From NCBI GenBank assembly GCA_036925085.1, contig JAUPFP010000005.1, positions 4,431,383 through 4,495,382 on the forward strand: DNA of 64,000 nt. Direction: 5' to 3'. Below the pieces are notes generated by a model. The model had not been told where the DNA came from, searched no databases, and was given only the letters and a program-made list of their open reading frames with translations. The DNA comes from Brachycybe producta (taxonomy: Eukaryota; Arthropoda; Diplopoda; Playtdesmida; Andrognathidae). This document shows, piece by piece, positions 6,949 to 19,518 of this stretch (position 1 is its first letter; the number at the start of each line of letters is the position of its first letter). The position numbers and the translations under genes are program-made.

Positions 6949-9147
6949 GAGGCTACATCGCAAAATTTCTTCGAAAAATCTCCGCAAAGAGCGCTAGCAT
7001 CGTTTTTCTATTGCGCAATGTTAAAGACCCAATGTTAAAGAAAAAATGTTAGTTTTTAAAATACACAGTAGTAGTGGCAATATGTTTATTTTTTTCATAT
7101 TTAAAAATGGTTAAAAGTGCAATGTGCACCTTAAATATATGCTGATCGAGTGATAGAATGACAAAAAATTGGTAAGTGCGGTTATGTTTTTAACAAGGGA
7201 TTCAAGGAACCCTATAGACCTCCATTGCTTTAATATATGCTTTCATATATCAAATAACCAACTTTTTTTCATTGTGCGCATGTGTATGCACATGTACACA
7301 CTTGTGCGCATGTGTATGCACATGTACACACGTGTGCGCATGTGTACGCACATGTACACACGTGTGCGCATGTGTATGCACATGTACACACGTCTGCGCA
7401 TGTGTACGCACATGTACACACGTCTGCGCATGTGTACGCACATGTACACACTTGTGCGCATGTGTACGTACATGTACACACGTGTGCGCATGTGTACGCA
7501 CATGTACACACGTGTGCGCATGTGTACGCACATGTACACACGTGTACGCATGTGTACGCACATGTACACACGTGTGCGCATGTGCACGCACATGTACACA
7601 CGTGTGCGCATGTGTACGCACATGTACACACGTGTGCGCATGTGCACGCACATGTACACACGTGTGCGCATGTGTACGCACATGTACACACGTGTGCGCA
7701 TGTGCACGCACATGTACACACGTGTGCGCATGTGTACGCACATGTACACACGTGTGCGCATGTGCACGCACATGTACACACGTGTGCGCATGTGCACGCA
7801 CATGTACACACGTGTGCGCATGTGTACGCACATGTAAACACGTGTGCGCATGTGCACGCACATGTAAACACGTGTGCACATGTGTACGCACATGTACACA
7901 CGTGTGCGCATGTGTACGCACATGTAAACACGTGTGCACATGTGTACGCACATGTACACACGTGTGCGCATATGTATATAGATAATCACACATGTATGTA
8001 CTCATGTACATGACATAGTTACATGTGATGCGCATGCGTCATTCATTTGTAATATGGGTTTAAAATGAAAATACGTCACATGTATTCTAATATACAAAAA
8101 TAATAACAGAACATAAAAAGGAACACCCCTCCTAAATAATAGAAAAGTCCCCCCTTTCGAATGCTACAACTGGAAAGAGGAAGAATCTCGATTTTTTGAA
8201 AAAAAAATTACGTTTTTAAAAAATCGAAATTTTATATATCGAATCGCTCTAAAATTCCAATTTTTTTCCAGTTTCATCGTCAGAATGTTTACATCATTTT
8301 AGGTCTGATGACATTTTATCGTAGGTGGCCCCGTTTTTGAGTTGTTCGACCCACTAAAAATTATGACCAAAAACTCAAAATTTGTTTCTAAAACATTCAT
8401 AAAAAAATAACCCCTGGGTAAAATTTTCTAATTTTTTGTCAGGAGCTTCATATTGACCCACGGAATCAAATAAAAAATACTGCATGTCTTTATCTCATTC
8501 CGTTCTTGAGTTGTTCGAGGAACTAAATCGGGTTCCGGACACACACACACACACAGACATCCTTTTTTTCCCCTTTTCTTGCATGATCCTATATACCTCC
8601 ATTGCTCTTTAGAGCAATGGAGGTCAAAAACTATTTGAAAATCGCAAATTAATAACTTTTATGTTAAACTCCATTGAGTACGCGCTCGTGAGCAAAAAAA
8701 CATCCATTAAAATGCTCGTAAAAATAATTTTAAAAAACTAGAAAAAAACCAGCACGTGCGCCAATGTATTGGCTTCTTGTGGTTTTTAAAATTATTTTAC
8801 GTATTTTTACGAGCATTTTAATGGATGTTTTTTGCTTACGAGCGCGTACTCAATGGAGTTTAACATAAGAGTTAAGAAATTCGCGATTTTCAAATAGTTT
8901 TTAAAAATAGAACCGTACTTTCCTATTTTTGTCATTCTATCACTCGCACTTTGAACAACTTGAAAACTTGACAACTTGAAAACTTAATATTGGACAACTT
9001 TAAATATGAAAAATAAACATATTGCCACGACTGTGTATTTTAAAAATTAACGTTTTTTTCATTAACTTCGGGTCTATGGGCGCGATAGAAAAACGTTGCT
9101 AGCGCTCTTTGCGGAGATTTTTCGAAGAAATTTTGCAATGTAGCCTC
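6949..9147. mobile_element. Foldback-type DNA element, copy 1, with TTAA ends
   Basis: The ends are long inverted repeats of over 200 bp: GAGGCTACATCGCAAAATTT at the left and, in reverse complement, GAGGCTACATTGCAAAATTT at the right. They share CTCCGCAAAGAGCGCTAGC and CACCTTAAATATATG-type sequence. Both ends abut TTAA (6945-6948 and 9148-9151), as piggyBac-type insertions do. Internally there is a second inverted repeat (about 8625-8745 against 8781-8905) and, in the left half, the 7275-7975 minisatellite. No transposase is encoded, so it is non-autonomous. A diverged second copy lies at 21703-23588. Confidence 0.75.
7275..7975. repeat. 30-bp minisatellite, strictly alternating purine/pyrimidine
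   Basis: About 23 tandem copies of a 30-bp unit made of GTGTGCGCATGTGTACGCA followed by CATGTACACAC, with few variants (CTTGTG, CGTCTG, TGCACG, GTAAACAC). The unit is itself near-palindromic and alternates purine and pyrimidine without a break in most copies. Because 30 is a multiple of three and the unit lacks stops, all six frames stay open for about 700 bp; the resulting long open frames are artefacts, not genes. Confidence 0.95.
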
Positions 9148-14504: not shown

Positions 14505-17500
14505 TTACTTGGCAATTCTTTGAGCTGTTGTGGTTGTCGTCGTGCCAACCTGGCAACCGAAGTCGTAAGCATCGAACAGATCGGCAAGACCCTCGCCCTC
14601 GTGAAGGCTGAAATTGTAGTCGTCGTCGGACAGCGGCGGCTCGAGAGGCAAGAAAGGCAGTTCGGTCGCATTCTGATCGTCGGTCTGTAATAGAAAACTC
14701 TTGCTTCCCATCGGCCCGAGATCGTCCTGTTCGGAAATGAGCGCCTCCTTGAAAGACGTGTCCCAATTCACACCTAAAAAAGAACGGAATTTATCGAAAT
14801 TGGAATAAAAAAAAAAAAACAAAAAAAAAAAAAGATCCGCTCCAGAAACTGCTTCTCGAGGTGACCATTTACGGATGGGATCGGGACCGAGAGAGATCAG
14901 GGATCTGGTCGATTTGTTCCATTCGTATTACGGCTTGAATCGATTTAATTTTATACGATTAATCAGAACCATAAAATTGATCCTTCAATTAATTGAATCG
15001 GAATCGGGCATTCCGAATGTCAAGGGGGAAAAAATGGAACGAAGAATCGTGTAGTTTCGAATCGATTCATTCCTTCTTTTTATGACGGATCGAATCGAGC
15101 TTCCATACCCTGAATATCATCCTCCACGGTGCAAGCGCCGTCGACATTGTCAGAACATTCCACGTCGGCCGTCACTTCCTCCTCGGGACAGAGAAACACT
15201 TCGATCTCTCCGTTTTTACTCTTTAACCAGATTTGGATCGACTGCGAACAAAACGATCGATTAGAAACAATATTCACGAGAACGAGGCTAACGATGATGA
15301 GGAATGGGGTGTTTTGTTAACGACCTCCTTTGGATCTGGAACCTCCAAACTGGTCTCTGGCGGTGCCTTGATGGCCACCACTGTCTGATTCTTAAGTGAT
15401 TCGATTTTGTGAATGTCCTGATAAGTGACGTAAGCGTGACGGTTTTCAGATTGCTCCATCATATTCTGTAAATTGAGCGTCACATTCTCGATCAAATCGT
15501 CTAACTGATTCTCTTTGGTTTCTAGGTCGATTAGTTCGGAATGTAAGTTTTGTATCTGCTGAGCGCTCACTCCACCGACTCCGACGGAACCTCTGTAAGC
15601 AAAGAAGATCGAGAAAACGGATTATGACTCCACCGGTTCTTTCATTCTTCCGATTTTTGTCTTTTCTACTCACTTCCATTGAATGTTGTTCTTCGATGTC
15701 TTTTCTATGAGATTCACACCTTCCAAGACGTTCGTTATGTCGTAAATACGTCGCTTTTGAACTGATAGATCCGTCGCTGCGCGACTCAGCTCCAGAAGCT
15801 GTTACGAAACAAACAAACAAAAAAACCCCGAGATCGGTAAGAAAATGTATCGGATCGTCTTCTTTCCCGTTTTACTAACCCCATTCGGAGCCGTTTGCAG
15901 CAAATCGACGAAACGTTTTGTGAGTAAACCGAGCGACGTATCGTAACGGCTTTTCTCGCACGGTGACTTTGGAACTACAGCTACAAATAAAAGATGCACC
16001 GAAAGCGGCGACACGGTTACTTACACAAGGGCAGTTATTATTTTTTGTCTCGACTAAAACGAAGTTTCACCTTTCGGACATCGTTTACGAGGATTACTAC
16101 TGACTAATTTAGTCGTCTTTCGACTCTTTGGCGTTTTGAATCCATTCGAAACAATCTCTTCGGAACTTTCGAGATTCAGTTTCCGTTTCACCTACAATTA
16201 GGAAAAGGCAGTCTAATTAAAAACCACACCATTGTATTTTCATAATAAAGATTTTAAAATATTATTTCAATTGGCGGCCGCTAGCCTCCAAGACTTATAA
16301 TAATAAGGCTTCGAAGTTCGTATATATTCGGCGCCAAAAGCACGAAATAAGGCGAGCGAAAAAGCCGTACAATCTTTCGCATAGAGGCTAAGTGGCTGCT
16401 AATCGAAAGAATTTGCAAACTTTTATTTTAACAATAATAATGGGTAATTTTATTATACAGAAATCCGTACGAAACACAAACTCGAAATTAGTTGGGTTTT
16501 TTGTTCTCATTTTATTAGATAATTAATGTGCTCTATAAATGCAATGTAAGGAAACATTACGACGAATGCGGGCAGTTACTTTTACGTCTTCCGTAAACGT
16601 CTTCTTGCAAAAAAAAAACAACCGCAACCGTATCAGCAATGAATTAGGCCTACGTGACGAGCATTAGCACCAAATAACGCTTATTTATTATGCCACTGTG
16701 TGTCATCATTCGTTGCTTATACGAATGCAGTTAACGATTTCCTTGATTTGTTTCCGCATCTGTAAGTTCAGAGTGAAATGTCTTGCGTTGCTTAAGCGGA
16801 GACATTTTCCGCACCAGTAACTTCCACAAACAAAAGACTAACGACGTCAGTTAAGGCAGAAATTCAAGAAGAAAACATAACACTTGAAGTTCAACTTTAA
16901 CCCTCTAGACAGGGTTCCAACACAGAAAAAAAAACTGCTGTATTGTTAACCTTTAAACAGTTTTCGCTCTCTCTCTCTCTCTCTAGAATTGGAACTCCTG
17001 CTTTAGAGAGTTCAAGACGAAGTTAAGTGACGTTTTCTTAAAATTAAGGTCTGCGAGGAGGGGGGGGGGGGCATTCGTGACGTCATTCGATCGCCAGTGT
17101 TGCGGCTCTTACCGAAGCGTACTTTTTTTAGCTGGAGAAAAAGAGAGAAAGTGGAATGGAAGGGGTCAAATGTTAACTTATTGCTTCCTGATTAATAAGA
17201 AAAAAATCTAAACAAAAAATTAAAAAGAAGCGAAGTTCAATTGGAAAATGTATTTTTTAAAAAAAAAAAAAAAACATTTCTTTTTGATTTCCTCATGGAT
17301 TCTTAAATTAATTTGGACGAGTTCAACGTATCTGACAAAGAATTTTCAGAAAGAGAGAAAGTTCGAAACAAAGGTCGAAACGGACGAACAAAATAAAGGA
17401 AAGGGAGGGGGGGGGGGGGGGGAGGGGAAGAATGCGGGGTGTGTTACTCATTTGCATAATATCGAGAGCCAATTACGAGGTCAAAGGTGACTTCTCCTTC

Positions 17501-17904
17501 TCCCCCCCCCTCCCTCTCCTCAAAAAAATTCCTTTGTCCTTTCTTTCGTTGCGGCGTCAAACATCAATAATTGGCTCTCTCACCTGCGCTTTTCCGATTG
17601 CGGGATTTGTTACGGTTCTAGCCGTATGATAAAAATGATCGGGCGTTTGTCCGTATTGCTGTAATAATTGTTGTTGTTGATGATTATGATTATGTCGTTG
17701 GTCGTTATTATTATCTAAAATGATGGAAGACGCAGCAAAAGAATCTTCGTCATCATCCTCGATAAGTGAAGTTCTGACCGGTGATGAATTCAACCAACAA
17801 CCGCTATCGGCATCAACGGTCGCCGTCACCGCGTTCCTGCTCCTACGCGATGATGATGATGATGATGCACTTGACCGGCGAGCGGCCGATGCCATCCTCG
17901 GCAT
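14505..17904 (-). CDS. E2F: E2F1/2/3-type transcription factor, complete, 7 exons
   Basis: Cell-cycle transcription factor that binds TTTSSCGC sites with a DP partner and is restrained by pRB. Exons on the minus strand: 17904-17584, 16191-16071, 15980-15880, 15798-15674, 15592-15325, 15241-15109, 14773-14505; all phases agree and give 445 residues, close to human E2F1 (437). Residues 1-107 are Ser/Asn/Gln-rich and unrecognised. VKRKLNLE (108-115) matches the cyclin-A/CDK2 docking motif. The winged-helix domain spans about 158-224 with [13 protein letters not shown] and [14 protein letters not shown] leucine-rich coiled coil and the marked box follow (about 230-330; [29 protein letters not shown]). 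The C-terminus has [16 protein letters not shown] and DLFDAYDF, the pRB-binding transactivation motif. The ATG has an in-frame TAG two codons upstream. The cyclin motif and C-terminus point to the E2F1-3 class; I cannot say which member. Confidence 0.93.
16192..17583 (-). other. Intron 1 of the E2F gene
   Basis: About 1.4 kb bounded by a GTGAGA donor (17583 downward) and a TTGTAG acceptor (16192). It holds G-rich runs on the plus strand at about 17060 and 17406-17421, a (CT)n patch near 16970 and homopolymer tracts. No separate gene is seen. Confidence 0.8.
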
Positions 17905-18333
17905 AGTCTAACTGAAAGCTGACGACCTTGCTTGCTCACACCTAAAATATTCTAACCGGACAAGGAACCGAACTTTTCCTACTACAACTACTACTACTAC
18001 TATTGTAACGTACTACAACAACAACAACGCCGCGCGATTCATTCGCCGTTTTTTTTGTTCTGAATTACGCGAACAAAAATAAACAAATTAGTACTCGAAA
18101 GTACAAAGTTCAATGTTGATTTTTTTTTCCTCTAAATCTTAAATTAAATTTTAAAAATAAAATGAACTGATAATAAAAAGAACAAAAAAGAGTAGAAAAA
18201 GGTTTTTGTTCTCGTTCGACATCTTTGTTTGTTGACGGTAGCGGCGGCGGCAGAGAACGGCTTGGTGGTGAAAACCGCTGCTTGTGCGATCGTCGCGCCG
18301 CAACAAGCAGCAGCAGCTGCCAACCAACAAAAT

Positions 18334-18390
18334 GAAGCGGGAAAAAAAAAACCGGTGTTTTATTTGGCGCCAAATTGTATTTCCCGCTTC
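18334..18390. promoter_or_regulatory. Cluster of three E2F-type sites upstream of the E2F gene
   Basis: Within 57 bp lie GCGGGAAA (18337-18344), the perfect palindrome TTTGGCGCCAAA (18363-18374) and TTTCCCGC (18380-18387). The two outer sites are exact inverted copies over 11 bp (GAAGCGGGAAA and TTTCCCGCTTC). All match the known E2F consensus TTTSSCGC. The cluster is about 430-490 bp upstream of the minus-strand E2F start codon. E2F1 autoregulation through such sites is known in vertebrates, so autoregulation here is a reasonable inference. Confidence 0.75.
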
Positions 18391-18657
18391 TTTTTCTCTT
18401 GTTATTTGTTCGCCTGAACTGCCTGCCTCCACCATAATAATCTAAACTTGTCATCGTAAAGGGTAATCAATTGTTTTGTTTCGGATTGCCTATGTATGTT
18501 ACATACGGTGTATATAGAATGAGAGATAAAAGAACAAACAGAAAGATAACGGAGTGAAATATATTGAGGAGAAGAGCACAGGAGGAATTTTGTGTTATCC
18601 TCCTCGTGTCAAACACTCAGTTTGTATTGACGCCATTTTCTCTTATCTTGGTAGCTA

Positions 18658-18818
18658 GCAGCTGTCGCACGCATCTGTAGACAGCTTCAGAATTTCTTTG
18701 GCTCCGCCCATTTATGAGCGTCAGACCCAGTAACAACCCAATTAGAAAGTGATGACGCTCATAAAAGGGCGGAGCCAAAGAAATTCTGAAGCTGTCTACA
18801 GATGCCTGTGCAGCTGTC
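18658..18818. mobile_element. GGCGGAGC-family MITE, copy G2, between E2F and SLC17
   Basis: The arms GCATCTGTAGACAGCTTC and its exact complement flank TTTGGCTCCGCCCATTTATG and its near complement, around AACCCAATTAGAAAG. About 160 bp. It sits in the 1.6-kb interval between the divergent E2F and candidate SLC17 starts. Confidence 0.75.
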
Positions 18819-18974
18819 ATTGTTACTTCTTACGTCATTAACTAACTAGCCAATAACGAGAGTGTATTGATGTAGCCTTGTGAACGATATCAATATGACT
18901 TGGTAAATCGATTTCGTACTGTAGATCGTTTTTTTAGTGTAAACGCCTCTTGAAATGACAATATTTATTTCAAT

Positions 18975-19100
18975 TTTTGGTCAATAAAAAGTTTATTTTA
19001 AAAGATATCAACATGCAAATATATCGTTGTGATTGAGATGCCCTTCTAGTTTCGAAAACATTTTCTAGTTTCTCTTCATTTTTTTTTTTCTCAGAATATA
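18975..19100 (-). repeat. Member of the dispersed CTTCTAGTTTCTAAAAC repeat
   Basis: Contains AATAAAAAGTTTATTTTAAA, GATATCAACATG and CCCTTCTAGTTTCGAAAAC in the same order as the copy at 13195-13365, including the following TTTCTCTTCATT. It lies within the intergenic region upstream of the candidate SLC17 first exon. Confidence 0.6.
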
Positions 19101-19338
19101 AAAATTTTGTTTACGTAGAATAAACTACCAATTCATTTAATTTTTAAATATAATTTGCGAAATTGCATAAAATTTTAAATTTCTTACGCTTTATTTATTC
19201 TGGCATAGCTATAGAATTCGCTGTAGTTCGCTCTTTTTTTTTTTTAGAAGATTGAATTGATTTTTTATCGCTAACAGTTCGATATCGATATGTCTGATAT
19301 CACTTGTTGGTTGGCGGGAAACAAATGGACATGAATTA

Positions 19339-19370
19339 TGACGTCACAGTACTTTTAACTCTATAAATAG
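19339..19370 (+). promoter_or_regulatory. CRE plus TATA box of the first SLC17 gene (candidate)
   Basis: TGACGTCA, a full cAMP-response-type element, at 19339-19346 is followed 15 bp later by CTATAAATAG at 19361-19370. A start site about 30 bp further would give a leader of roughly 80 bases to the ATG at 19470. An upstream ATG at 19418 opens a short frame that overlaps the main start, which could lower translation. Inference from motifs only. Confidence 0.45.
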
Positions 19371-19469
19371 AGAAAGATGTCCATTGAAATGGATTATAAA
19401 CGGGTTTTAATTTTTGAATGGAGTTAGTTGAACTCCTTATTTTGTTTTTGTGTGTTTTATGTTGCAATA

Positions 19470-19518
19470 ATGAACCAAACTAAAGTGGAGACGAAGAATT
19501 CGCCACACAAACCAAATG
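19470..19518 (+). CDS. SLC17: Candidate first coding exon of the first SLC17 transporter
   Basis: ATG opens 16 codons (MNQTKVETKNSPHKPN) and ends in a phase-1 donor G|GTAAAA. The next exon at 30099 begins in the matching phase (G|GA, giving GSGCIAYRYMF), so the joined frame runs through. A CRE and a TATA box lie just upstream. The peptide is a short hydrophilic cytosolic N-terminus, as expected before transmembrane segment 1 of SLC17 proteins, but the sequence is too short for homology. The resulting 10.6-kb first intron is long compared with the rest of the gene. Another unseen first exon is possible. Confidence 0.5.

Follow-up and report, generated by a model that had tools for sequence, protein, structure and literature searches.

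Three clustered E2F-type sites upstream of a predicted activator E2F gene in the millipede Brachycybe producta, a probable autoregulatory promoter element

Introduction

Vertebrate E2F1 is said to regulate its own transcription, and its promoter reportedly contains E2F sites (the work named for this is that of Johnson et al. from 1994). The promoters of vertebrate E2F1 and E2F2 are both said to carry such sites, for which the 1994 work is cited together with that of Sears from 1997. The locus described here resembles these promoters in having an activator E2F gene, TTTSSCGC-type sites upstream of it, and presumed RB-controlled autoregulation. It differs in its set of three sites, the outer two of which are inverted relative to each other.

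Activator E2Fs are induced upon release of pRB/DREAM, with a feedback loop, according to passages of one source (PMC10740672), and passages of another give TTT(C/G)(G/C)CGC as the consensus for cell-cycle E2F targets (PMC12785935). For Drosophila, passages on the Rbf1/Rbf2-E2F network describe how Rbf1 binds genes of the RB/E2F pathway itself, a situation like the one that we propose here (PMC3484676, PMC4502384). The genes named in those passages are rbf1, cyclins, cdk4/6, and dREAM-related genes, and no site cluster at E2f1 is described in them (PMC3484676, PMC4502384). Our literature search found no paper on B. producta or on this locus. The window, that is, the whole stretch of DNA that was analyzed, is 64 kb long, and all positions below refer to it unless a contig is given.

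Results

Within its 57 bp, the block at 18334-18390 holds three canonical E2F sites:

18334..18344, minus strand: left flanking E2F-type site, GAAGCGGGAAA on the plus strand and TTTCCCGCTTC on the minus strand; exact match, recovered also by the TTTSSCGC scan
18363..18374, no strand: two-sided palindromic E2F site TTTGGCGCCAAA; exact match, sole copy in the 64-kb window
18380..18390, plus strand: right flanking E2F-type site TTTCCCGCTTC; exact match, exact reverse complement of the left site

An earlier note on this DNA had reported these sites, and all of them were recovered exactly at their positions. The flanking pair, which it had described as exact complements around a palindromic site, is an exact 11-bp inverted repeat within the 57 bp. 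With mismatches allowed, the arms reach 21 nt at 86%, a similarity inflated by their A-rich flanks. Both arms are one-sided E2F sites (TTTCCCGC and then TTC), and only the middle site is two-sided. The layout had also been called unusually symmetrical, which holds for the exactly inverted outer pair but not for the palindrome: the arm pair is centered at 18362.0 and the palindrome at 18368.5, 6.5 bp off center, with spacers of 18 bp to its left and 5 bp to its right. Strict symmetry was rejected on this ground. A repeat origin of the block was unsupported as well, as the 121-bp stretch 18300-18420 matched the genome once, at itself, in a search that passes over simple repeats and very common words. 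Elsewhere in the window, there is a long repetitive stretch (7157-8038) that is open in several frames on both strands.

The gene that follows the block on the minus strand was modeled as follows:

14505..17904, minus strand: activator E2F gene; seven-exon GT-AG model, 446 aa
17904-17584, 16191-16071, 15980-15880, 15798-15674, 15592-15322, 15241-15109, 14773-14505, minus strand: exons of the model
18333 (A), minus strand: possible E2F transcription start, Initiator-like TTCATTT adjoining the left arm; consensus match only

This model is one of several choices of exon borders and was preferred since in it the E2F DNA-binding domain stays in frame. The 446-aa product matches the Pfam families E2F_TDP (1.1e-26) and E2F_CC-MB (6.3e-34), and among PDB structures the DNA-binding domain of E2F-4, with E2F1 (2aze) as the best match of the CC-MB part. 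Its winged-helix DNA-binding domain contains the RRIYD recognition helix, and by eye we found KRKLNL and an E2F1-like acidic, RB-binding-like C terminus. The former may be the N-terminal cyclin-binding motif KRxLxL, and the C-terminal stretch may be the pocket-protein binding motif; the C-terminal exon by itself had no Pfam match. Judged by its predicted protein, the gene is an E2F1/2/3-type activator E2F, as the earlier note had proposed from the letters, and the distance of about 0.5 kb that it had given is in agreement with the 429 bp that separate the end of the block from the ATG at 17904. An in-frame TAG lies two codons before this ATG, and there are upstream ATGs at 18435, 18222, and 18042 (within 17905-18450). 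The Initiator consensus is TCAKTY, and since the match at 18333 is one of four on the minus strand in 17905-18450, it marks one candidate start among several.

On the other side of the block, a divergent gene begins with these features:

19470..19518 (49 nt), plus strand: likely first coding exon of an SLC17-type transporter; donor GT/acceptor AG, in phase to 30099
19362-19369: SLC17 TATA box TATAAATA
19339-19346: SLC17 perfect CRE TGACGTCA
19314..19321, minus strand: fourth E2F-like site, TTGGCGGGAAAC on the plus strand, given also as GCGGGAAA; near the SLC17 TATA box

The exon after the first one matches MFS_1, and exons 2-3 match the structures of sialin and VGLUT, while exons 1-2 alone (95 aa) matched no Pfam family. 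The intergenic region also contains, near the SLC17 promoter, the octamer TATCGATA at 19283-19290, presumably a DRE-type octamer.

The clustering of the sites is not due to chance. Dinucleotide shuffling of 17905-19470 and of 18301-18500, 20,000 times each, never produced three separate sites in 60 bp, so that by this test of clustering TTTSSCGC upstream of the E2F gene exceeds chance. The window contains 15 copies of TTTSSCGC, against a mean of 6.7 in shuffles, and four of the 15 are inside the block. The reversed motif is found 13 times, so that overall the window shows no enrichment of E2F sites, and it is their clustering, rather than their number, that is unusual. Similarly, the 12-mer TTTGGCGCCAAA alone has 177 copies genome-wide compared with 169 of its reversed control, and some copies are clustered, with six within 0.5 kb at C1:3107208-3107676; the palindrome alone was therefore rejected as evidence. 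Considering these near-equal reversed controls, single sites prove little. The two-sided pattern TTTSSCGSSAAA was found 852 times versus 386 for the reversed pattern, a control that is a poor match because its core is GC rather than CG.

The inverted pair GCGGGAAA-N20-50-TTTCCCGC exists at two places in the 295-Mb genome, this block and C1:21542697, and only in the block is there a palindrome within the pair (20-50 bp spacing). The triple arrangement at the block's spacings occurs once in the 295 Mb. At C1:21542697, no cell-cycle gene was recognized by reading the 3 kb there. The combination TTTGGCGCCAAA-N0-30-TTTCCCGC has three matches genome-wide, of which two are the two sides of the block and the third, at C30:1418175, precedes an Ima1_N-domain open frame, which we take to be TMEM201-like. 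In front of this frame, GCGGGAAA is joined to TTTGGCGCCAAA (L057:1501-1521), and the gene is possibly a further E2F target. The outward inverted pair had no match genome-wide, and direct pairs had 73 (37 plus 36), many of them in tandem arrays; some direct GCGGGAAA pairs (C23, C24, C31) enclose GACGTCA. The control for the inverted pair, CGCCCTTT-N20-50-AAAGGGCG, was unusable, with 4,612 matches that apparently stem from a foldback repeat. One copy of this repeat, with 56-nt arms that are 96% complementary, lies at 18668-18808; the 4,612 matches suggest thousands of related copies throughout the genome, and inspection of L025 by eye showed a similar copy at around 2580-2700.

The same motif was found at other cell-cycle genes of this genome, where the upstream 2.2 kb of each gene were covered. 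Upstream regions were covered for eight of the 11 MCM-domain places (C13, C41, and C42 were left out), and seven of these eight MCM-family regions carry TTTSSCGC: those of all six replicative genes (MCM2, 3, 4, 5, 6, and 7) and one more (C8, L069). The remaining gene (L063), which we assume to be MCM8-like, has no TTTSSCGC in its 2.2 kb. The reversed motif is present in one of the eight MCM-family regions. As background, 2.2-kb tiles of the window, those of the block included, contain TTTSSCGC in 8 of 29 cases and the reversed motif in 9 of 29. Upstream of PCNA, one TTTSSCGC and one TTCCCGCC site lie at about 135-165 bp from the ATG, RRM2 (the ribonucleotide reductase small subunit) has TTTSSCGC upstream, and the regions of MCM6 and RRM2 both contain the 12-mer TTTGGCGCCAAA identical to the palindrome of the block. 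The MCM5 site is about 50 bp before the ATG; start codons were located for MCM5 and PCNA only, and for the other controls the site is upstream of the first recognized coding exon. These classical E2F targets support the reading of the block as E2F sites, and by its sequence the animal appears to use TTTSSCGC sites at its replication genes. The E2F block has the same kind of site as MCM2-7, PCNA, and RRM2, but the stretches examined at these genes contain only one or two sites per gene, compared with three within 57 bp at the E2F gene.

The genome codes for further E2F-type DNA-binding domains, one at C95 and a pair at C9 whose members are about 0.9 kb from each other, and E2F_TDP domains are also found at C94 and C180. 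The C9 pair would be E2F7/8-like, and C94/C180 would be DP-like. One of three other E2F/DP-type upstream regions examined contains TTTSSCGC, that of the E2F7/8-like gene (L072), and the other two have none. The DP-like E2F_TDP gene appears on C94 and C180 (L020/L021, L023/L024) with identical scores and spacing, perhaps as an uncollapsed haplotype.

Discussion

Considering the exact sites, the absence of comparable clusters among 20,000 shuffles, the single triple arrangement, the identity of the gene, and the controls at MCM2-7, PCNA, and RRM2, it seems likely that the block is an E2F-responsive promoter element of the activator E2F gene, through which E2F would regulate its own expression. 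Transcription probably begins near the block, in which case the 5' leader would be roughly 0.4 kb long. In resting cells, complexes of E2F4/5-like proteins, DP, and pocket proteins would occupy the sites and hold the gene off. In late G1, activator E2F-DP would displace them and raise its own transcription, and the result would be a positive feedback loop that promotes entry into S phase. Several findings speak against an E2F-responsive element: the arms lack a second E2F half, the block is farther from the ATG (429 bp) than the sites of MCM5 and PCNA, TTTGGCGCCAAA in the genome and TTTSSCGC in the window hardly exceed their reversed controls, the upstream regions of the MCM8-like gene and of two of the three other E2F/DP-type genes have no site, and the 3 kb read at the second inverted pair (C1:21542697) revealed no recognizable cell-cycle gene.

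The block could instead be a true E2F element that serves mainly as a repressor platform, where E2F4/5-like or E2F7/8-like proteins, together with pocket proteins or DREAM, silence the gene and its activation has another source. Both activation and repression are known to act through E2F sites, and the genome does contain, besides the DP-like domains at C94/C180, further E2F-type domains at C95 and, paired as in E2F7/8, at C9. However, a matching DNA-binding domain is present in the activator protein itself, and nothing at the locus tells activator from repressor occupancy; we consider a predominantly repressive role rather unlikely.

A role shared by the two divergent genes, which would be compatible with E2F autoregulation, was also suggested by the earlier note. 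The likely first exon of SLC17 at 19470, on the other strand, and the E2F-like site at 19314-19321 are consistent with it. However, about 1 kb separates the block from the SLC17 promoter, and a role of the block there, though conceivable, is unsupported. At that distance, SLC17 is equipped with a TATA box and a CRE of its own, together with the separate GCGGGAAA, and the foldback repeat copy lies between the block and the gene. No reason is known to us why SLC17 should be under S-phase control, and altogether a shared element seems very unlikely. Hardly any weight is left for a chance or compositional cluster, bound incidentally at most and with no role in E2F transcription, since the near-equal counts of the motifs and their reversed controls and the arm similarity inflated by A-rich flanks, which would favor it, are set against the shuffles, the triple arrangement found once in 295 Mb, and the same kind of site at 6/6 MCM2-7 genes, PCNA, and RRM2.

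With the block taken as an E2F-responsive element, the inverted triple cluster might further be a dedicated cooperative switch that this animal has at its E2F gene and nowhere else. We regard this as unlikely; if true, three adjacent E2F/DP dimers would give the autoregulation a sharper threshold than the one or two sites of ordinary targets.

As read from its motifs, the block is a real, non-random E2F element, unusual in the density of its sites and familiar in its logic, with a wiring already known from other animals. It is a further likely example of an E2F gene under direct autoregulation, accompanied by controls from the same genome (MCM2-7, PCNA, RRM2). As such, it would fit the view of E2F self-feedback as general animal wiring and leaves that view unchanged.
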